From Actinobacillus vicugnae (lineage in GTDB: Bacteria; Pseudomonadota; Gammaproteobacteria; Enterobacterales; Pasteurellaceae), in the NCBI RefSeq assembly GCF_901687125.1, contig NZ_CABFJY010000046.1, positions 62,001 to 126,000 on the forward strand: a stretch of 64,000 nt of DNA, written 5' to 3'. This document shows, one piece after another, positions 21,656-31,536 of this stretch. Position 1 is the first letter of the stretch; each line of letters begins with the position of its first letter. Under the pieces are notes generated by a model. The model searched no databases. It had not been told where the DNA came from and worked only from the letters and a program-made list of their open reading frames with translations. The position numbers and the translations under genes are program-made.

Positions 21656-21848
21656 CTATGCCTCCTATGCATTCAAATAATAATTATTCGTTTTTTGTAA
21701 ATTTTGAAGCAAATTAGACCGCTTGTCACACAATTTGAATAAATTTACCTGCGTAGGTTGTTCTAAATGCATAAATCAGCGAAAATAACCCCGTATTTTT
21801 AGGTGGCTTGCCACCCTTTTTTGTTTTAATTTTAATCTAGAGAAAAGC

Positions 21849-23429
21849 ATGTCATACCCACAAGAAGTCAATAAACGTCGCACCTTTGCGATTATTTCTC
21901 ACCCCGATGCGGGTAAAACCACCATCACTGAAAAAGTCCTACTTTACGGCAATGCAATTCAAACGGCGGGGTCGGTAAAAGGTAAAGGTTCTAGTGCTCA
22001 TGCAAAATCAGACTGGATGGAAATGGAAAAACAACGTGGTATCTCAATTACCACCTCTGTAATGCAATTCCCTTACAATAATTGTTTAGTAAACTTACTT
22101 GATACACCAGGACACGAAGACTTCTCTGAAGATACTTACCGCACCCTCACCGCTGTAGATAGCTGTTTAATGGTTATCGACAGTGCAAAAGGTGTTGAAG
22201 AACGTACCATTAAACTTATGGAAGTTACGCGCCTGCGTGATACACCGATTTTAACCTTTATGAATAAACTCGACCGAGATATTCGTGATCCAATGGAATT
22301 ATTAGACGAAGTAGAAAGCGTGCTAAAAATCCGTTGTGCGCCTATTACTTGGCCGATTGGCTGTGGTAAATTGTTTAAAGGCGTGTATCACATTGCTAAA
22401 GATGAAACTTATCTTTATCAGTCAGGTCAAGGTTCCACTATTCAAGAAGTACGTATTGTAAAAGGCTTAAATAGCCCAGAACTTGATGCTGCCGTAGGTG
22501 ATGATTTAGCTAACCAATTACGTGAAGAATTGGAACTTGTACAAGGTGCATCAAACGAATTTGATCACGAAGCATTTATTAACGGTGAGCTAACCCCTGT
22601 ATTTTTCGGTACTGCATTAGGTAACTTTGGTGTAGATCATTTCCTAGATGGCTTAACCGAATGGGCGCCAAAACCACAAGCACGCGAAACTGATCTTCGT
22701 ACGGTTGAATCAAGTGAAGAAAAATTCTCTGGTTTTGTGTTTAAGATCCAAGCAAATATGGATCCAAAACACCGTGACCGAGTTGCCTTTATGCGAGTGG
22801 TATCTGGCAAATATGAAAAAGGCATGAAGCTAAAACACGTACGTATTGGCAAAGATGTGGTGATTTCTGATGCGCTAACCTTTATGGCTGGTGACCGCTC
22901 ACACGCAGAAGAAGCCTACGCAGGTGATATTATTGGTTTACATAACCACGGTACTATTCAAATTGGCGATACCTTCACCCAAGGTGAAATGATGAAATTC
23001 ACGGGTATCCCTAACTTCGCACCCGAGCTTTTCCGTCGTATTCGTTTAAAAGATCCGCTCAAACAAAAACAATTACTGAAAGGTTTAGTGCAACTTTCTG
23101 AAGAAGGTGCGGTGCAAGTATTCCGCCCTCTAATGAATAACGACCTGATTGTAGGTGCCGTGGGCGTGCTCCAGTTTGATGTGGTTGTATCACGTTTAAA
23201 AACGGAATATAACGTAGAAGCGATTTATGAAACTGTGAATGTTGCAACCGCTCGTTGGGTTGAATGTAAAGACGCGAAGAAATTCGAAGAATTTAAACGC
23301 AAAAATGAGCAAAACCTTGCATTAGATGGTGGTGATAATCTGACTTATATCGCTCCAACCATGGTAAATTTAAACTTGGCACAAGAACGCTATCCTGATG
23401 TTGATTTCTTCAAAACTCGTGAACACTAA
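21849..23429 (+). CDS. prfC: Peptide chain release factor 3
   Basis: RF3 is the GTPase that recycles RF1/RF2 from the ribosome. G1 HPDAGKTT at 18-25, G3 [14 protein letters not shown], and G4 NKLDRD are intact; the C-terminal part has the RF3-specific domain ([22 protein letters not shown]). The family length of 526 residues is exact, and a short AGAGAAAAGC leader stands before the ATG. Monocistronic: divergent from the DUF805 pair, closed by the terminator at 23493. Confidence 0.97.
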
Positions 23430-23492
23430 CTAAAACTAGCGGTCGAATTTTGCAATTTTGTTGCAAAAAATCACCGCTTATTTTGCAACAAA

Positions 23493-23520
23493 AAATGCGA
23501 CCCTAAAGGTCGCATTTTTA
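23493..23520. terminator. Bidirectional rho-independent terminator
   Basis: AAAAATGCGACC-CTAAA-GGTCGCATTTTT: perfect stem with A- and T-runs on both sides, between the convergent prfC and the adhesin gene. Confidence 0.9.
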
Positions 23521-23543
23521 TTATCTGTGGTTAAAAGGAGAAA

Positions 23544-26414
23544 TTACCAGAAGTACCCCATACCTACCGAGCCACCAAGCTCTTTACGGGTGTTAGCACT
23601 GAAAGAGACTTTCACTCCAACGCCACTTGGTAACGATTGTGAATAACCTACCGCTACCGCTGTTTGGCTTTCATATTGACCTACAGCCGCAGTTACACCT
23701 GATTGACCTGCTGGCGCTTGTAATAAGCCTGCGGTTGCAATCGCAGATGCTGTACCTGCTTTACGATCTTTGTTTAAACGGTTTAAACGTCTGTCAAAAT
23801 CATTACGTGTTTGATTTAACTGACGAACATTTACTGCGTCTGTCGCATTTACCCCGTCTGCAACGTTAGTAATACGTTTGTTATTCATATTAATGCCGTT
23901 GCTATCAATTGTCGGTCCATTGTTTACTGAAACCGAATCCGCAACTACTTTCGCAAATGTTGGATTATCTACAGTTGCCACCGTAATTGTGTTTGCATCT
24001 TGGGTAATTGCAATATTTTTACCTGAATTTACCGCTACTGTTTCACCTGGTTTCACATTATGACTTGTTACTGTGCCATCAGCAGCTTTTGTAGAAACCG
24101 TTACGCCTTCAGTTGCGGCTGCTGCAGTATCAATCTTAGATTTAATTTCTTCAGATAACGCGTAGACGACTTTGCCTTTGCCATCCGTAGTTACATTTAA
24201 ATCTGAGGTTGCACCAAATGTTAAGCTATCGCCTTGTTCTAATGTCCAAGTATCCGCTAAACCATCAGCGTTTAATGCAGTTTCATTGTTGCTCACATTG
24301 AAAGTATAAGCGGTTGATTTATCTGCTTTTTCATCAAGCTGTGCTTTATTTACTGCATCTGTTGCATTTACCCCAGCTGATACATTACTGATCGTGTTAT
24401 CCGCAGCATTAATGCCTTCTGTTGTAAGTTTTGGACCATTCGTTACGCCAACAGAAGTTGTTACTGCCACTTGATTCGCATTTATAACATCACTGTCTAT
24501 ATGCGCAATATCTGAAGAACCTGCAACAATTTGATCCGCATTAACACGAGAAATATTACCTGTGCCAGCATTAATTTGATCGACATTAATGAGTGCAGTA
24601 TCAGTGGTACCTGCAACAATTTGATCCGCATTAATATGAGAAATGTTACCTGTACCAGCATTAATTTGATCGGCATTAATAAGTGCGGTATCAGTGGTAC
24701 CTGCAACAATTTGATCCACATTAATATGAGAAATATTACCTGTGCCAGCATTAATTTGATCAGCATTAATGAGTGCGGTATTCGTTGTGCCTACAACAGC
24801 TTGCTCTGAAGGAGAGGCAGCGACAAGCTCAGAAATTAACTCATCTGTTGAAATAGCTGAGGTTGTTGCTGTCGCTAAGCTTGTAGAAAGCAATGATGCT
24901 ACATCTAAAGTATAGCTACTTGCGCTATCAGCGCTTTCAGATGCACTCGTTAAACCTGTGCTACTTACTAGTTCTGATACCGTAGCACTTGGATAATAAA
25001 TCAACGAATTACTTGCTAAGATTTGATATAACTGAGCCCCATTAATTGCATCAGTACTAAATTCAGAAATATCACCTGCAGCTAAATTCGTAATACCATT
25101 AGCACTGATAGTAGGACCATTTGAAACATTGATCGTATCTACTACATTTAAATTATCCGTATCGATCGTATTTGAAGATAAACCAACTGTACGAATACGA
25201 TATGCATCAACCACACCTGAAACAGCAAGTGATTCTGTTCTTACACGCGCAGCGTCCACAATACCTGTTGCTGATAAAGAGCCAGTTCTAATACGAGCAG
25301 CATCAATCACCCCTGAAGCCGCTAATGAACCTGTTCTTACACGCGTTGCATCAATAATACCTGATGCAGATAAATAACCTGTAGTTACATTTTCCGCATT
25401 CATTTGTTTTGAATTTACGGCATTTGAAGCGGTTAAATTTGCTGTATTTACTTGGGTTGCATTCACGGCATTTGAAGCCGTTAATGAAGCCGTATTAATT
25501 TGCGTTGCATTTACCGCATCTGAAGCCGTTAATGAAGCCGTATTAATTTGCGTTGCGTTTACTGCATCTTTTGCCGTAATTGAATCGCTGTTTACTTGAG
25601 TTGCATTGACCGCTTTTGCATCAATTACTGTTGATTTCACATTTTCCGCATTCACTTGTTGTGAATTTACAGCATTTGAAGCGGTTAAATTCGCCGTATT
25701 TACTTGGGTTGCATTCACGGCATTTGAAGCCGTTAATGAAGCCGTATTAATTTGCGTCGCATTTACTGCATCTGAAGCTGTTAATGAAGCGGTATTAATT
25801 TGCGTTGCATTTACTGCATCCGAAGCCGTTAATGAAGCGGTATTAACTTGTGTTGCGTTTACGGTTTTTGCATCAATTTCATTTGTACTTACCGTAAATG
25901 TATTTAAACGATTCGTATTTGATGTGGTTGCATTCAGCACATTTGCAGCCACATTAAGCGCATTGATTTGTGCTGAATTTACAGATTCTGAAGCGGTTAA
26001 TGCGATAGTATTTACTTTAGTTGCATTTACTGCGCCTGACGCTGTTAATGCGGCAGTATTAATTTGGGTTGCATTTACCGCATCTGAAGCCGTTAATGAA
26101 GCGGTATTAATTTGGGTTGCATTTACCGCACCAGATGCAGTAATAGATCCCGTATTAACTTGCATTGCATTAACTGCATCGCTATGTAATGTGGTGGTAT
26201 TTATTGATGAAAACTCAACATTATTCGCAGAAGAAATATTTAATGTATTTCCTTCTGCTGCAAGGTTGATATTATTATCTGAATTAACAACAACTTTATT
26301 TGCATTATCTGCAGTAACCGTTGCGGTGTTTAATTCATTTGCCATTGATGTTGCATAAAAAGATGATAATGCTAAGGCAATTATCGTTTTAGTCATTTTA
26401 TTATGTACACACAT
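23544..26414 (-). CDS. Trimeric autotransporter adhesin with 16-residue repeat passenger
   Basis: A 956-residue surface protein of the YadA type. The start at 26414 has GAGGTGG; a hydrophobic signal (TKTIIALALSSFYATSMA) follows. Residues about 60-430 consist of some twenty copies of a 16-residue unit, typically ASLTASDAVNATQINT, with variants VNSQQVNA and IDAARIRT. After a neck (STDAINGAQLYQ) and a Ser/Thr-rich stretch comes an array of about three copies of a 30-residue unit built on INADQI and VAGTTDTAL. Two more necks (NATDAVNKAQL, NATDAVNVRQL) lead into a short coiled coil and the C-terminal anchor (AGQSGVTAAVGQYESQTAVAVG ... GSVGMGYFW) that forms the trimeric outer-membrane pore. Repeats suggest length variation by recombination. 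The ligand is unknown. Confidence 0.88.
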   Translation of the reverse strand: MCVHNKMTKTIIALALSSFYATSMANELNTATVTADNANKVVVNSDNNINLAAEGNTLNISSANNVEFSSINTTTLHSDAVNAMQVNTGSITASGAVNATQINTASLTASDAVNATQINTAALTASGAVNATKVNTIALTASESVNSAQINALNVAANVLNATTSNTNRLNTFTVSTNEIDAKTVNATQVNTASLTASDAVNATQINTASLTASDAVNATQINTASLTASNAVNATQVNTANLTASNAVNSQQVNAENVKSTVIDAKAVNATQVNSDSITAKDAVNATQINTASLTASDAVNATQINTASLTASNAVNATQVNTANLTASNAVNSKQMNAENVTTGYLSASGIIDATRVRTGSLAASGVIDAARIRTGSLSATGIVDAARVRTESLAVSGVVDAYRIRTVGLSSNTIDTDNLNVVDTINVSNGPTISANGITNLAAGDISEFSTDAINGAQLYQILASNSLIYYPSATVSELVSSTGLTSASESADSASSYTLDVASLLSTSLATATTSAISTDELISELVAASPSEQAVVGTTNTALINADQINAGTGNISHINVDQIVAGTTDTALINADQINAGTGNISHINADQIVAGTTDTALINVDQINAGTGNISRVNADQIVAGSSDIAHIDSDVINANQVAVTTSVGVTNGPKLTTEGINAADNTISNVSAGVNATDAVNKAQLDEKADKSTAYTFNVSNNETALNADGLADTWTLEQGDSLTFGATSDLNVTTDGKGKVVYALSEEIKSKIDTAAAATEGVTVSTKAADGTVTSHNVKPGETVAVNSGKNIAITQDANTITVATVDNPTFAKVVADSVSVNNGPTIDSNGINMNNKRITNVADGVNATDAVNVRQLNQTRNDFDRRLNRLNKDRKAGTASAIATAGLLQAPAGQSGVTAAVGQYESQTAVAVGYSQSLPSGVGVKVSFSANTRKELGGSVGMGYFW
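24490..24790 (-). repeat. About three 90-bp direct repeats inside the adhesin gene
   Basis: Units carrying 'gtacctgcaacaatttgatc' and 'ccagcattaatttgatc' recur every 90 bases and encode a 30-residue repeat. Copies are almost identical at the DNA level, which suggests recent expansion. Confidence 0.8.
25190..26180 (-). repeat. About twenty 48-bp direct repeats inside the adhesin gene
   Basis: Units centred on 'gcatctgaagccgttaatga' recur every 48 bases and encode the 16-residue motif. A block of four to five units occurs twice, around 25390-25560 and 25650-25860, indicating a larger segmental duplication on top of the unit repeat. Confidence 0.85.
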
Positions 26415-26718
26415 ATTCCACCTCAATATAAGGAAGTTGATTTTTTCAGTTAAATTTCTTTCATTATTCTTTATGGTAAAAATCATAAATAACACTCACA
26501 CTTATTTATATAAATACCCAATAAAGACTTAATAGAATATATACCCTTAAACCTATATTTACTAACTAATCGGATCTGGCAATAGAAATATGTTTTTTAT
26601 TACAGATCAGATGTGTACACATAGCTTTACAAAATAAACCTATACTTTTTTTATGGTTTTTATGTTAGAATCTGCGCCTCATTCACCAAATACCTGACTA
26701 AATTAAAGGGAGATTATA
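26415..26718. promoter_or_regulatory. Divergent control region, adhesin / ABC importer
   Basis: About 300 AT-rich bases separate the two divergent starts. Visible elements: the inverted pair GATCTG/CAGATC around 26574-26614, the palindrome TGTGTACACA around 26617-26626, and a TTAGAAT element near 26665 that could be the -10 of the importer operon. No known regulator site was recognised. Confidence 0.35.
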
Positions 26719-28293
26719 ATGAAAAAATGGCTATTTCCGTTACTTGCTTCAGCTTTGTTAATCAGTGGCTGTAATGAAGATTCAGCACCTCAAAGCAATA
26801 CCCAAAACACTTCAAATTCCGAAAAAAACACATTTAAAAACAATGAATTAAAACAAGTTACCGTAATCGCCCCCTGGGAGTTAAATAGCCTACACCCGAC
26901 CCAATCTGGTGTTATTTTTCAACGAATGAATTTGGCAGAAACTTTAGTAGAAGCAAATGAACAAGGTGAATTAATTCCAGGATTAGCAACGGAATGGTTT
27001 AGCAATCAGGACGCTACAGAATGGACTTTTACCTTGCGAGATGCCACTTTCCACAATGGCGAAAAATTGGATGCTAAAATTGTTGTAAAGAATTTAAATT
27101 TATTAATGAATCAACCTAGTATTCTAAAAAAAGCATTTATTAAAGAAATTAATACAAAAGGCAATAATCAGATAACTTTTAAATTAACTAAACCATTCGT
27201 TCCATTTCCATCTTTTTTAACACACTACTCAACAATTATTTTAGCGAATGAGTCATTTAATGAAAAAGATGAAATTACTCAGCTAATTGGATCAGGGGCA
27301 TTTAAAGCGACTAAAGTTGAAGCTCCCCAAAAAATAGAAGCAATTCGTTTTGAACAATATTGGGGTAACAAACCTCAAGTGATGCAAGCTAATTATTTAG
27401 CAAGTAGCCGAAGTGAAACTCGTGTATTAATGGCACAAAGCGATGCGACTTCATTGGTATTTAATTTAGATACGGCAAGTATGGCTCGTTTAAAAACTGA
27501 TCCTAATTTAACATTAACCAGTGGATCTATCGCTCGTACGATTCAGTTAAAAATGGATGTAGCAAAACCATTTTTTAATGACTTAGCCATTCGTAAAGCG
27601 CTTTCTCAAGCAATCAATCGCAAAGCAATTGCGGAGCAAGTATTAAAAATTGAAGATGGTATCGCTGATCAAATTTTGCCGAAAGCCTTTGCGGACTGGC
27701 GGGTAGCAAGTAAAGATGAACAACTTGATATTGCAAAAATCAAGCAAAATTTGACCGCTTCTGGTTACAAATTTAATCAGGACGGTAAGCTCACCGACAG
27801 CTCAGGCAAACCATTTAGCTTTACACTCAGAACCTTTTCTGATCGTCCAGAGCTTCCGCTTATTGCAACGATTTTGCAAGCGCAATGGAAACAAATTGGG
27901 GTTGATGTGAATGTTTCAGTCGGAAACTTTAGTGAGATTCCTGCAGGTCATAAAGATGGTAGTTTAGAAATGGCGCTATATGCCTTAAATTACGGTAAAA
28001 CCATCGATCCATTCGGTGTAATTGTGCAAGATTACGCAAAAGGTGGTAGTGATTGGGGGGTGATGAACTGGAACAATGAACAGCTTGCACAAACACTAGA
28101 TCAAATTGAGACTGAACGAGATGCACAAAAAGTGAAACAGCTAAAACAAACCGTTAGTCAAATTATTCATGACGAGTTACCGATTATTCCAATTGTGTAT
28201 TATCAACAAAATGTTGCGACACATAATGATATTCAAGGCGTGAAGCTCGATCCATTTGAAAGAAGATTTTTTTTAGAAACACTTAAAAAATAA
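26719..28293 (+). CDS. ABC importer substrate-binding lipoprotein, peptide/nickel family
   Basis: A family-5 solute-binding protein of 524 residues (the DppA/OppA/NikA fold). The lipobox LISGC puts the lipid on C18, followed by a Ser/Asn/Gln linker (to about 45), then the lobes: ELIPGLATEWF and WTFTLRDATFHNGEKLDAKIVVKNL are the signature of this family. It begins an operon with two permeases and a double ATPase, but a strong hairpin follows its stop. Ligand: NikA-type binding of nickel or a metallophore and peptide or haem binding are all possible; the sequence does not decide. Confidence 0.85.
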   Translation: MKKWLFPLLASALLISGCNEDSAPQSNTQNTSNSEKNTFKNNELKQVTVIAPWELNSLHPTQSGVIFQRMNLAETLVEANEQGELIPGLATEWFSNQDATEWTFTLRDATFHNGEKLDAKIVVKNLNLLMNQPSILKKAFIKEINTKGNNQITFKLTKPFVPFPSFLTHYSTIILANESFNEKDEITQLIGSGAFKATKVEAPQKIEAIRFEQYWGNKPQVMQANYLASSRSETRVLMAQSDATSLVFNLDTASMARLKTDPNLTLTSGSIARTIQLKMDVAKPFFNDLAIRKALSQAINRKAIAEQVLKIEDGIADQILPKAFADWRVASKDEQLDIAKIKQNLTASGYKFNQDGKLTDSSGKPFSFTLRTFSDRPELPLIATILQAQWKQIGVDVNVSVGNFSEIPAGHKDGSLEMALYALNYGKTIDPFGVIVQDYAKGGSDWGVMNWNNEQLAQTLDQIETERDAQKVKQLKQTVSQIIHDELPIIPIVYYQQNVATHNDIQGVKLDPFERRFFLETLKK

Positions 28294-28326
28294 ATAATGG
28301 CAATTGCCAAATAAAATTCAATTTAA

Positions 28327-28372
28327 AAAACACGGAAACAGCACTAATGCTGAACAGATTTCCGTGTTTTTT
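28327..28372 (+). terminator. Strong hairpin with T-run between binding protein and permease
   Basis: AAAACACGGAAA and TTTCCGTGTTTT form a perfect 12-bp stem; inside it CAGCA-CTAA-TGCTG makes a second stem. A run of Ts follows. It is a textbook intrinsic terminator placed inside the operon, likely to lower transcription of the membrane part relative to the binding protein. Confidence 0.85.
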
Positions 28373-28394
28373 ATATACTTTAATGGTCAAAAAT

Positions 28395-29333
28395 ATGTTT
28401 AATATTATTCTTCGACGCCTATTTCAAATCATTTTGGTGGTTTGGTCAGTCGGCACTCTCACCTTTATTCTCACCCGTCAACTCTCTGGAGATATGGCAT
28501 ATCGCATTGCTGCCAGTCGTTACGGCTATGATCAAACCGATAGCCTCGCAGCTGAATTAGTACGAGCAGAACTTGGGCTTGACCAACCATGGTGGCAAAG
28601 CTATGGAAATTGGCTACTTGATCTTTTACAACTTAATTTAGGCAAATCATTAGTCACTGGCGATTTGGTCTGGAACGAAATTGCACATCAATTTGGGTAT
28701 ACCCTTAGCCTGGCAATCGTCGCATTATGTATCGCACTTATGATTGGGCCTACGCTTGGTATTCTTGCTGCTCGCAAAGAAAACGGCTTTTTTGACCGCT
28801 TAACCTTAGTATTCAGTACCTTATTCCGCTCTGTTCCTGCATTTATTATTGCAATTGGATTGATTACGATTTTTTCTGCCACATTGCGCTGGTTACCTGC
28901 AGGCGGATATGGAAAATGGCAGCACTTTATTTTACCTGCTTTCACCCTCGCACTTGGCTTAAGTGCAGTTTCGGTAAGGGTCACTCGCGCAGCAATGTTG
29001 CAAGTGAAACAATCTGAATATTACCAATTTGCTCGTTTAAAAGGGCTATCGAAATGGAAAACTTTTACACGCCACGGACTACGTAATATTGCGATTCCTA
29101 TCATTGCTTATCATGCGGTACAGCTGGTTTATCTGATTGAAGGTGTAGTAGTAGTGGAAAGCTTATTTGCTTGGCCTGGCAGCGGACACGCATTAGTTCA
29201 TGCGATTATTGCGCGAGATGTGCCAATGATCCAAGGTACATCTCTAGTGATGGGTGGCTTATTTGTACTGCTAAATATGGGAGCAGATATGTTAAGCGCA
29301 TGGATTGACCCACGAATTACCGATAAACGTTAA
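28395..29333 (+). CDS. ABC importer permease, DppB/NikB family
   Basis: The first inner-membrane subunit, about 312 residues from the ATG at 28395 (MFNIILRRLFQIILVV). It has an N-terminal membrane segment, a periplasmic loop (ELGLDQPWWQSYGNWL..LNLGKS, as in DppB), then five more segments with the EAA coupling loop (AMLQVKQSEYYQFARLKGLSKWKTFTRHGLRN). ATGs at 28347 and 28383 in the same frame overlap or abut the terminator hairpin and have no ribosome site, and the chosen start also lacks a strong one. It pairs with the next permease. Confidence 0.85.
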   Translation: MFNIILRRLFQIILVVWSVGTLTFILTRQLSGDMAYRIAASRYGYDQTDSLAAELVRAELGLDQPWWQSYGNWLLDLLQLNLGKSLVTGDLVWNEIAHQFGYTLSLAIVALCIALMIGPTLGILAARKENGFFDRLTLVFSTLFRSVPAFIIAIGLITIFSATLRWLPAGGYGKWQHFILPAFTLALGLSAVSVRVTRAAMLQVKQSEYYQFARLKGLSKWKTFTRHGLRNIAIPIIAYHAVQLVYLIEGVVVVESLFAWPGSGHALVHAIIARDVPMIQGTSLVMGGLFVLLNMGADMLSAWIDPRITDKR

Positions 29334-29344
29334 GAGGCATAAAG

Positions 29345-30130
29345 ATGAATAACATTACATTAAGTCAAAAAATTGGTGGCGTGATGTTAGCTTTGCTAGT
29401 CGCATTCGCTTTTTTACAGCCATATTTTTATCCGATGGATATCGGCTTTCAAGATCTTAGCAATATATTAGCAAAACCTAATGAATTAGCATGGTTTGGC
29501 ACCGATCATCTCGGGCGAGATATGTTAGCACGTCTTGCTTCTGCGATTCGTTTATCATTCGGCTTATCATTGTTCAGCGTGTTTTGTGCGTTAGTTGCAG
29601 GTCTAGTATCTGGTATCTTAGCAGGCTTTTTTGGTGGCTGGCTTGATCGTTTATTTAGTTTTATCTGCGATTTAGTGATGGCGCTACCTGGTCTATTACT
29701 AATTTTATTGTTCGCTTCCCTAGCACCTGGTGCATTTTGGACACTTTATTTAGGGATTGCGTTAGTGATGTGGGTAGAATTTTTCCGTGTAATTCGAGCC
29801 GTGAGTCAAACACTTGCCTCTAGTGCAGAAATCGAGTCATCTCGTTTAATGGGGATGGGCTTATTTTATAGCTTTAAACGTCATCTTTTTCCTCGTTTAT
29901 TGCCACTCATCGTTACCCTAAGTGCTTTCTCTCTAGGCAATGCAATTTTAGCACTCGCAACGCTTGGCTTTGTAAATGTAGGCTTACGTCCGCCTACAGC
30001 TGAATTAGGTTTAATGATGACGGAATTATTCCCTTATTACTATGAAGCACCATGGATTTTTATGCAGCCCGTTATTGCCGTCTTTTTAATGGTTTTAAGC
30101 CTGCAACTTTTGTCTGGGAGAATCAAATAA
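29345..30130 (+). CDS. ABC importer permease, DppC/NikC family
   Basis: The second inner-membrane subunit, 261 residues, with a segment near the N-terminus, the LAWFGTDHLGRDMLARL block typical of DppC-type permeases, and five further hydrophobic segments. The EAA loop is at SSAEIESSRLMGMGLFYSFKRHLFPRLLP. It starts 11 bases after the first permease and its stop overlaps the start of the ATPase gene (TAATG), so subunits are made together. Its C-terminus ends a little earlier than in many family members. Confidence 0.87.
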   Translation: MNNITLSQKIGGVMLALLVAFAFLQPYFYPMDIGFQDLSNILAKPNELAWFGTDHLGRDMLARLASAIRLSFGLSLFSVFCALVAGLVSGILAGFFGGWLDRLFSFICDLVMALPGLLLILLFASLAPGAFWTLYLGIALVMWVEFFRVIRAVSQTLASSAEIESSRLMGMGLFYSFKRHLFPRLLPLIVTLSAFSLGNAILALATLGFVNVGLRPPTAELGLMMTELFPYYYEAPWIFMQPVIAVFLMVLSLQLLSGRIK

Positions 30131-31536
30131 TGACTTTACTGCGCATTGAAAATGTTGGCGTTCAAACCAGCACAGGTTTAACTTTAGTGGAGCCGATCAG
30201 CCTCAGTTTGGTACAAGGCAAAAATATTACCATTCTTGGCGAAACAGGCTCAGGCAAAAGCCTATTAATTCAAGCGATTATGGGCGCTTTACCTAATGGG
30301 CTTGTGACAAGCGGTCAAATTTTTGTAGAAAACTGCAAAATGGAAACGCATTCGCTTGAATCATTATGGGGTAAAACCTTAGTAATGTTGCCACAAGAGC
30401 CTCGCCGTTCGCTGGATCCAATTATGGCGATCGGAAAACAACTTTGGGAAAGTTTGTTCTTTGTTGCTAAAAAAACGAAACAAACCGCTAGAAATGAAGC
30501 AACACAAGCATTAGATCATTTAGGTTTAAACGCATGGCAAGCGGCTTATCCACACCAATTATCGGGTGGCATGGCACAACGAGCGTCTTTTGCGATCGCT
30601 ACTGCAGCAGGTGGTAAAATTTTACTCGCTGATGAACCCACAAAAGGGTTAGATCCACACAGCAAAGCGAATGTGATCAAACTGCTTAAACAAGCCTATC
30701 AAAACCAAGGTGGTTTACTAACTATTACTCATGATATTGAGGTTGCCGAACAGTTAGGCGGTGAAATTTTAGTCATGAAAAAGGGCAAATTGTTAGAGAA
30801 AGGTTTGGCAGAAGATTTACTAAAAAATCCACAGCATCCTTATACAAAAGCCTTGATTGCAGCCGATCCAAAACACTGGCCAGCGGTCAAAAGTGTGCAA
30901 AATTTTGCAAAAAATCAACCGCTTGTCTCCGTAAAAAATTTAGCCGTCGCACGAGGTAAACGCACACTTTTTAGCGGACTTTCATTTGAATTGCATCAAG
31001 GCGAAATTTTAGGGCTGGTTGGACACAGTGGAATAGGTAAAAGCACTTTAGCTGATCTGCTATGCGGTTTACTCAAACCTAAAGCGGGAGAAGTGATTTG
31101 GCACAGTCAGCAACATAAGAAACATCAAGTACTAAAACTTTACCAAGATCCACCAGAGGCTTTTGCGCCAACAGTGAGCTTGCAAACATTATTAGATGAC
31201 GTGATTAACAAGCACAAACTAGATCGTTCTCAAATTCCAAACTTATTGCAACAGCTTGCTCTTTCACCAGAAACTTTAGCGCGTAATGCTGAAAATGTAT
31301 CAGGAGGAGAATTGCAACGAGTGGCGATCTTACGTGCCTTATTGCTCGAACCCGTTTTGCTGTTTGCAGACGAAGTCACATCTCGATTAGATCCAATTAC
31401 CCAAAAAGAAACGATTGAGTTATTAATCAATCAATGCCGTGCCCGCCATTGCGCATTAGTGATTGTCAGTCATGACCCATATTTGATTGAGAAAAGTTGC
31501 GATAAAGTGATTGATTTAACCCAATTCGTGAAATAA
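30130..31536 (+). CDS. ABC importer double ATPase (DppD-DppF/NikD-NikE fusion type)
   Basis: One 468-residue chain holding both nucleotide-binding domains. Domain 1: Walker A GETGSGKS at 37-44, signature LSGGMAQR, Walker B ILLADEPT, TITHD switch. Domain 2: Walker A GHSGIGKS at 298-305, signature VSGGELQR, LLFADEVTSRLD. In domain 2 the usual glutamate-proline pair after the Walker B aspartate is E-V, still with the catalytic Glu. The start at 30130 overlaps the preceding stop and has GGGAG. Two-domain fusion occurs in YejF, DdpD-type and CntDF-like systems; here it does not define the ligand. Confidence 0.88.
   Translation: MTLLRIENVGVQTSTGLTLVEPISLSLVQGKNITILGETGSGKSLLIQAIMGALPNGLVTSGQIFVENCKMETHSLESLWGKTLVMLPQEPRRSLDPIMAIGKQLWESLFFVAKKTKQTARNEATQALDHLGLNAWQAAYPHQLSGGMAQRASFAIATAAGGKILLADEPTKGLDPHSKANVIKLLKQAYQNQGGLLTITHDIEVAEQLGGEILVMKKGKLLEKGLAEDLLKNPQHPYTKALIAADPKHWPAVKSVQNFAKNQPLVSVKNLAVARGKRTLFSGLSFELHQGEILGLVGHSGIGKSTLADLLCGLLKPKAGEVIWHSQQHKKHQVLKLYQDPPEAFAPTVSLQTLLDDVINKHKLDRSQIPNLLQQLALSPETLARNAENVSGGELQRVAILRALLLEPVLLFADEVTSRLDPITQKETIELLINQCRARHCALVIVSHDPYLIEKSCDKVIDLTQFVK

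Follow-up and report, generated by a model that had tools for sequence, protein, structure and literature searches.

The DNA analysed here, called the window throughout, is a stretch of 64,000 nucleotides from Actinobacillus vicugnae (RefSeq assembly GCF_901687125.1, 2.48 Mb in 49 contigs; contig NZ_CABFJY010000046.1, positions 62,001 to 126,000), and the gene of interest in it encodes a trimeric autotransporter adhesin (TAA) whose passenger begins with an array of 16-residue repeats that probably forms a solenoid head. The coding sequence lies on the minus strand (26414..23544, 956 amino acids), with its ATG at 26414, GAGGTGG just upstream of this start and a stop codon ending at 23544, which is exactly the span given by an earlier first-pass annotation; residues are numbered from the second methionine (MTKTII, 26396). 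On one side of the gene lies prfC (21849-23429) and on the other a gene (26719-28293) whose product is the solute-binding lipoprotein of a peptide/nickel-type ABC transporter; the names of both come from inspection.

Regarding the class of the protein, the Pfam family YadA_stalk (PF05662) matched three stretches (8.2e-22, 77.7 bits against a cut-off of 28.4) and YadA_anchor (PF03895) matched residues 895-950 (4e-9, 36.8 bits against 22.7), while PDB chains of Hia, VompD, Adhesin A and other TAA fragments matched the necks, head-proximal domains and anchor. On these matches the protein is assigned to the trimeric autotransporter adhesins (type Vc), as the first-pass annotation had proposed. That annotation had also described a passenger without YadA head repeats or long stalks; none of the four Pfam families that the full-length adhesin gave at E≤10 is a YadA head-repeat family, but the protein does have necks, a short stalk and ordinary C-terminal domains, which the description had passed over. 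The NCBIfam model EmaA (NF033477) gave 128.9 bits against a cut-off of 3000, matching best over the final 134 residues, and the EmaA label was rejected on this score; the C-terminus is thus shared with the EmaA-type TAAs of Pasteurellaceae while the passenger is unrelated, and because the match is so far under the cut-off the collagen-binding name is unjustified and was not carried over. The features of the locus are:

23544..26414, minus strand: adhesin coding sequence, start chosen from the GAGGTGG spacing and from the orthologues, whose first residues are MYVNKKMSKTII
26340..26414, minus strand: short signal peptide, MCVHNK plus residues 1-19, ending ...SMA (by eye)
26220..26339, minus strand: N-terminal cap, residues 20-59, conserved among orthologues
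25164..26219, minus strand: 16-residue repeat array, residues 60-411, pentad lattice, predicted ~23 coils (repeat and lattice analysis; AlphaFold2 model)
25164..25376, minus strand: basic IDAARIRT-type part of the array, residues 341-411, computed isoelectric point 10.7
25020..25160, minus strand: neck 1, residues 413-459 (matches PDB neck chains 2ynz and 3zmf)
24798..25019, minus strand: low-complexity linker, residues 460-533 (AlphaFold2 predicted local distance difference test score, pLDDT, ~30-40)
24447..24797, minus strand: 15-residue (30-residue) repeat array, residues 534-650 (repeat analysis)
24327..24446, minus strand: neck 2, residues 651-690 (from sequence; within the matches to PDB 3wpr and 2yo3)
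23961..24317, minus strand: ordinary TAA head-proximal domain(s) with WTLEQGDSLTFGA, residues 694-812 (part of the matches to 3d9x and 4lgo)
23757..23948, minus strand: neck 3 and short stalk, residues 817-880 (best YadA_stalk stretch 841-879)
23547..23714, minus strand: YadA membrane anchor, residues 895-950, ending in W (Pfam YadA_anchor)
23491..23519, no strand assigned: terminator-like hairpin between the adhesin gene and prfC (consensus match only)

The 16-residue array has a lag-16 identity of 0.53 across residues 61-410. Its motif pattern gave 22 matches, including one in the second array and two overlapping pairs (174/179 and 258/263), and a strict 5-5-6 spacing is kept by 16 units, the remainder having diverged, which makes the earlier count of about twenty copies a fair one. 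The drift towards IDAARIRT-type units noted in the same annotation is real, consisting of four DAxRxRT units at residues 348-411, and so are the near-identical DNA repeats, the best pair of unit copies being 98% identical; a 252-bp DNA period is also present (2.0 copies, 89%). Underlying the units is a lattice of anchors 5 or 6 residues apart; along 352 residues, 67/68 of these anchors are V, I, L, M or F, and the lattice score is 66, while 2000 shuffles had a median of 11 and reached 23 at most. The same lattice holds in the N-terminal units, diverged as they are, in the spacers with all-5 steps and in the IDAARIRT units. Charge positions played no part in placing the anchors, and charged residues on an anchor or on anchor+2 number 0/36 in the window protein and 0/185 over five orthologues, window included; each of the 16 strict units has A, S, T or V at anchor+2, and none of their columns holds a conserved glycine (at most 5/16). 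An aliphatic lattice with charge-free i and i+2 is what three short strands in each turn would show if i and i+2 pointed inwards, and the array therefore suggests the inside/outside code of a beta-solenoid that is three-sided and takes 15-16 residues for each turn. The rule behind the array, an aliphatic residue every 5 or 6 positions with i and i+2 free of charge, is new.

The one-residue bulges (the 6 of 5-5-6) occur within residues 60-411 in four runs of four, spaced by 10, 7 and 4 lattice steps; as each of these numbers equals 3n+1, the bulge shifts to the next face past each spacer. Opposite the repeats, an antisense open frame of 250 amino acids runs on the plus strand (window 25606-26358), probably a by-product, since a 48-bp repeat leaves every frame in phase.

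Neither array had an above-cut-off match in Pfam or NCBIfam, and neither matched a PDB sequence at E≤0.3 (best E 0.34), in keeping with the earlier statement that the fold is not obviously described. PF08017 (Fibrinogen_BP) gave 29.7 bits, under its cut-off of 50, for the 16-residue array alone and was not listed in the full-length scan; this match looks composition-driven. A coiled-coil stalk was rejected by inspection for the arrays, in which hydrophobic residues stand 5-5-6 apart and not 3-4. The unit SLTASDAVNATQIN resembles the neck motif GVNATDAVNVRQLN, found at 23814-23855 (residues 848-861) and 24336-24377 (residues 674-687), with a protein score of 38 that none of 16,150 background windows reached and that the best of 500 shuffles equalled; DNA identity between necks 2 and 3 and ten units is only 0.38-0.62, the out-of-register rows of neck 1 being left out. 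The unit may derive from this conserved neck motif, although such an origin is not established.

An AlphaFold2 (AF2) monomer prediction of residues 20-465, whose input included rows from A. capsulatus and A. ureae, is a solenoid with strands in step with the repeat (mean pLDDT 76.7, predicted TM-score 0.71); 155/446 residues have pLDDT ≥90, and the neck is of low confidence. In a VIA-align comparison with 50 rows listed, the superpositions of low root mean square deviation (rmsd) were the HMW1 secretion domain of Haemophilus (3.3 Å over 217 residues, Z 14.2), the best of these, and tapirin (3.5 Å over 205, Z 14.1), while left-handed helices and the BpaC roll superposed at 9-13 Å. Since HMW1 and tapirin are both, as we assume, right-handed, the AF2 model is presumably right-handed as well, on the basis of rmsd only. 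HMW1 is a two-partner secreted right-handed beta-helix and differs from the adhesin in its secretion route, in not being a TAA and in showing no sequence match. None of the 50 rows listed was a BadA or Hia beta-prism head, although absence from this list does not count against a fold, and the array matched no PDB chain by sequence. Where the first-pass annotation had offered a solenoid or a trimeric beta-prism, the strict pattern fits the former; neither pattern nor model suggests the latter, which is the less likely of the two.

The second array had been described as a separate 90-bp array, and it is indeed present at 24519-24781 (2.9 copies, 93% matches), but a 45-bp sub-period shows its 30-residue repeat to be two 15-residue units. 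For this array only, Pentapeptide_2 (PF01469) gave 15.9 bits, under its cut-off of 26.4, with weaker rows too. It also matched five records of phage tail/adsorption proteins with DQIxAGT-like repeats (best 4e-11) and the phage families PHROG 26466 (2.4e-5), 32822 (0.0012) and 14105 (0.0018), whereas the 16-residue array had no match among the phage records (E limit 1). The phage likeness of the 15-residue array is likely to reflect a shared repeat grammar and not descent.

Regarding distribution, the 16-residue profile was found in 5/9 genomes of the genus, and the same five were the only ones among 140 Pasteurellaceae genomes; the 15-residue profile was found in the same 5/140. A contig scan with two patterns from the signal-peptide region, which are uninformative on the repeat elsewhere, gave A. 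capsulatus DSM 19761 and A. ureae ATCC 25976 as named relatives. With one genome per species, the five copies differ in array length, which supports the predicted length variants at the level of species, the antigenic change predicted with them being hypothetical: the window copy has 69 anchors (~23 coils), G001 82 (~27), G003 66 (~22), A. capsulatus 76 (~25) and A. ureae 46 (~15). The adhesin gene is present or absent at one chromosomal site. Counted from the last prfC sense codon, the gap from prfC to the ABC transporter gene is 3292 nt in the window, 3524 nt in G001 and 3231 nt in G003, all with the adhesin gene, and 207, 219, 217 and 196 nt in four further species without it (G002, G004, G007 and G008), two of these four short gaps having been read. 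In G001 the orthologue (L011 4440-4640) is 7 nt shorter between the signal peptide and the rest, which breaks the frame and leaves the signal peptide out of frame, so that this copy is either broken or mis-sequenced.

Searches of wider groups used samples, in which absence is not proof. The class search with the 16-residue profile gave 3/369 genomes at E≤0.01, namely the window genome, G531 (9.4e-4) and G429 (0.0079), the latter two having frames with stops and being judged chance. The phylum search gave 4/398 at E≤0.001 (the window genome, G003, G605 and G656), and the hits outside the genus were likewise judged chance, G605 (3.4e-6) being an alternative frame across an unrelated repeat gene and G656 (7.9e-4) a frame of 34 amino acids. 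On viral contigs, 91 and 49 stretches fitted the patterns of the two unit profiles and none was confirmed; plasmids gave no match. The A. suis protein ASU2_07040, named 'extracellular matrix protein adhesin A', is a TAA with its best match in A. capsulatus and only a weak one in A. pleuropneumoniae, as described in PMC4644294, and is probably an orthologue, matched by description and not by sequence. According to the same source, A. suis has four TAAs, and the two singled out for the most notable length differences do not include ASU2_07040.

Adhesins of A. pleuropneumoniae are substrates of a cytoplasmic N-glucosyltransferase (NGT) encoded behind rimO, and N-glycosylation in the cytoplasm is also described for HMW adhesins (PMC5303269). 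In the window genome, a rimO-like gene is followed by a 681-amino-acid frame with an HMw1_D2 match (4.0e-54), and no second transferase gene directly after that frame. The family PF18254 finds NGT in 8/9 genus genomes; PF13844 was discarded as the wrong family (0/9 genus genomes). In G006 the NGT match (G006:C1:167727-167948, L088) is a frame of 120 amino acids, compared to 621-693 in the seven other matching genomes, and this ngt gene is possibly broken. The adhesin has 28 N-x-S/T sites, 16 of them in the 16-residue array, and 11 of these 16 are N-A-T at one position of the unit.

The adhesin is a predicted surface adhesin whose array is the distal head, with a length set by repeat number. 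A TAA with a distal head of three-sided beta-solenoids (15-16 residues per turn) is the best explanation of the array and is held here with moderate confidence. Given the bias of AF2 towards solenoids for repeats, this solenoid rests on the lattice first and on the model second. After export, the anchor would trimerise in the outer membrane and the passenger would be pushed outward, placing the N-terminal array at the tip, where each chain would coil into a three-sided solenoid of three pentads per turn with aliphatic i and small i+2 inside and polar or charged i+1, i+3 and i+4 outside. The three chains would join via the neck beneath the array, and ~23 turns at 4.8 Å would give a rod of ~11 nm. 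Possibly the 15-residue array repeats this architecture over a shorter length. Ligand binding would fall to the exposed faces, and gain or loss of repeat blocks would alter the length of the rod with the reading frame kept. The computed isoelectric point is 10.7 for the IDAARIRT part (residues 341-411) compared to 4.4 for residues 75-330, and this basic stretch beside the neck is the likeliest candidate site, presumably for polyanions. The resident NGT may decorate the N-A-T sites.

Several results weigh against the solenoid head. Over a slightly wider region of the array, 15/83 aliphatic residues lie off the lattice, and because the units are copies of each other the shuffle contrast overstates their independence. 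Foldseek gave no PDB match for the AF2 model at E≤0.001, and the highest Z values among the VIA rows belong to YdcK (18.1 at an rmsd of 10.9 Å, and 17.5), with rmsd near 11 Å; VacA, which we take to be right-handed, superposes at 9.2 Å over 336 residues, which speaks against right-handedness. The 15-residue array has a 5-5-5 spacing with a lattice score of 10 that stays within shuffles (maximum 15), and the lattice is therefore not claimed for it; the AF2 prediction of this region is also poor (pLDDT 42.5). N-x-S/T sites are not enriched in the 16-residue array (16 compared to a shuffle mean of 12.5, P 0.14), and since composition predicts their number, the site count is compatible with glycosylation and no evidence for it. 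Moreover, AF2 yields confident, unrealistic solenoids for repeats, as documented in PMC11795689.

This last point is also an argument for regarding the array as a largely unfolded or loose spacer and the AF2 solenoid as an artefact of repetitive sequence, an idea that also draws on the low variety of the array's composition and the composition-driven appearance of the PF08017 match. Disorder, however, gives no reason for an aliphatic lattice of 5 or 6 with charges kept off two of five positions, in diverged units and in five species, and false solenoids are marked by buried stacked charges (PMC11795689), of which none is buried on this lattice; the spacer is improbable. A better case can be made for an intertwined triple beta-helix like the shafts of phage tail fibres, with three chains round one axis, successive pentads on different faces and a rod ~3x longer per residue. 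TAA trimers are described in PMC7247746 as intertwined beta-sheets and not separate domains, and the lattice by itself leaves it undecided which chain gives the neighbouring strands. The phage matches of the 15-residue array point the same way, as do viral predicted structures, 16 of which match the AF2 model at E≤0.001 (best 5.4e-13), but their TM-scores are low (0.10-0.33), the 16-residue array itself lacks a phage match, and the AF2 monomer closes confidently on itself, subject to the repeat bias just mentioned. We regard the triple helix as rather unlikely.

An ordinary YadA-type head, that is, a left-handed beta-roll with a lengthened repeat, is the least credible of these alternatives and very improbable. 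The heads of YadA, EibD, UspA1 and BpaC resemble the array in being distal and repetitive, in that each short repeat forms one beta layer, in having a neck next to the repeats and in a repeat number that can vary; layer size varies between 14 and 15 residues, that of UspA1 being 15 (PMC9543794), and the structural matches include the BpaC head (7o23; Z 12.1), albeit at an rmsd of 9.3 Å over 294 residues. The YadA-type head is defined by a repeat of ~14 residues with a fully conserved glycine at position 8, as given in PMC9543794, whereas the array has layers of 15-16 residues in three pentads and 16 strict units without such a glycine, and no YadA head family appears in the Pfam listing; because the roll needs this glycine, the head is set apart from it.

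Beta-roll and beta-prism suffice for classifying most TAA heads according to a review (PMC7247746), and no TAA with a three-sided or right-handed solenoid head was recognised in the fold-term literature, as judged by titles and abstract openings. In its fullest form the solenoid reading would make the array a third class of TAA head, in which three right-handed pentad solenoids, each three-sided and with no glycine rule, form the trimer; the rod would be tuned by coil number, the N-A-T ladder glucosylated before export and the unit possibly derived from the neck. This combination is speculative, and on balance doubtful. If true, a glycine-free pentad solenoid would be a third TAA head type that a simple rule on the sequence could find (an aliphatic residue at each fifth or sixth position, i and i+2 uncharged), and related Actinobacillus species would offer a natural series of heads of ~15 to 27 coils for relating head length to adhesion. 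The array is also a natural test case for the disputed solenoid predictions of AlphaFold.

Outside the repeats, a basic RSSRSRRSLD stretch occurs in the inter-array linker of four orthologues (L009, L010, L011 and L012) and is missing from that of the window protein (24798-25019). The prfC gene of G002 is split into two frames (G002:C1:1460277-1461855) by a frameshift or a sequencing error. The motif ACAAGCGGT, which we take to be the Actinobacillus-type DNA uptake signal, has 24 sites in the window and none within 21718-30307, the stretch that holds the adhesin gene. Three further long open frames with TAA C-terminal matches are present in the same genome (contigs C9, C11 and C48).

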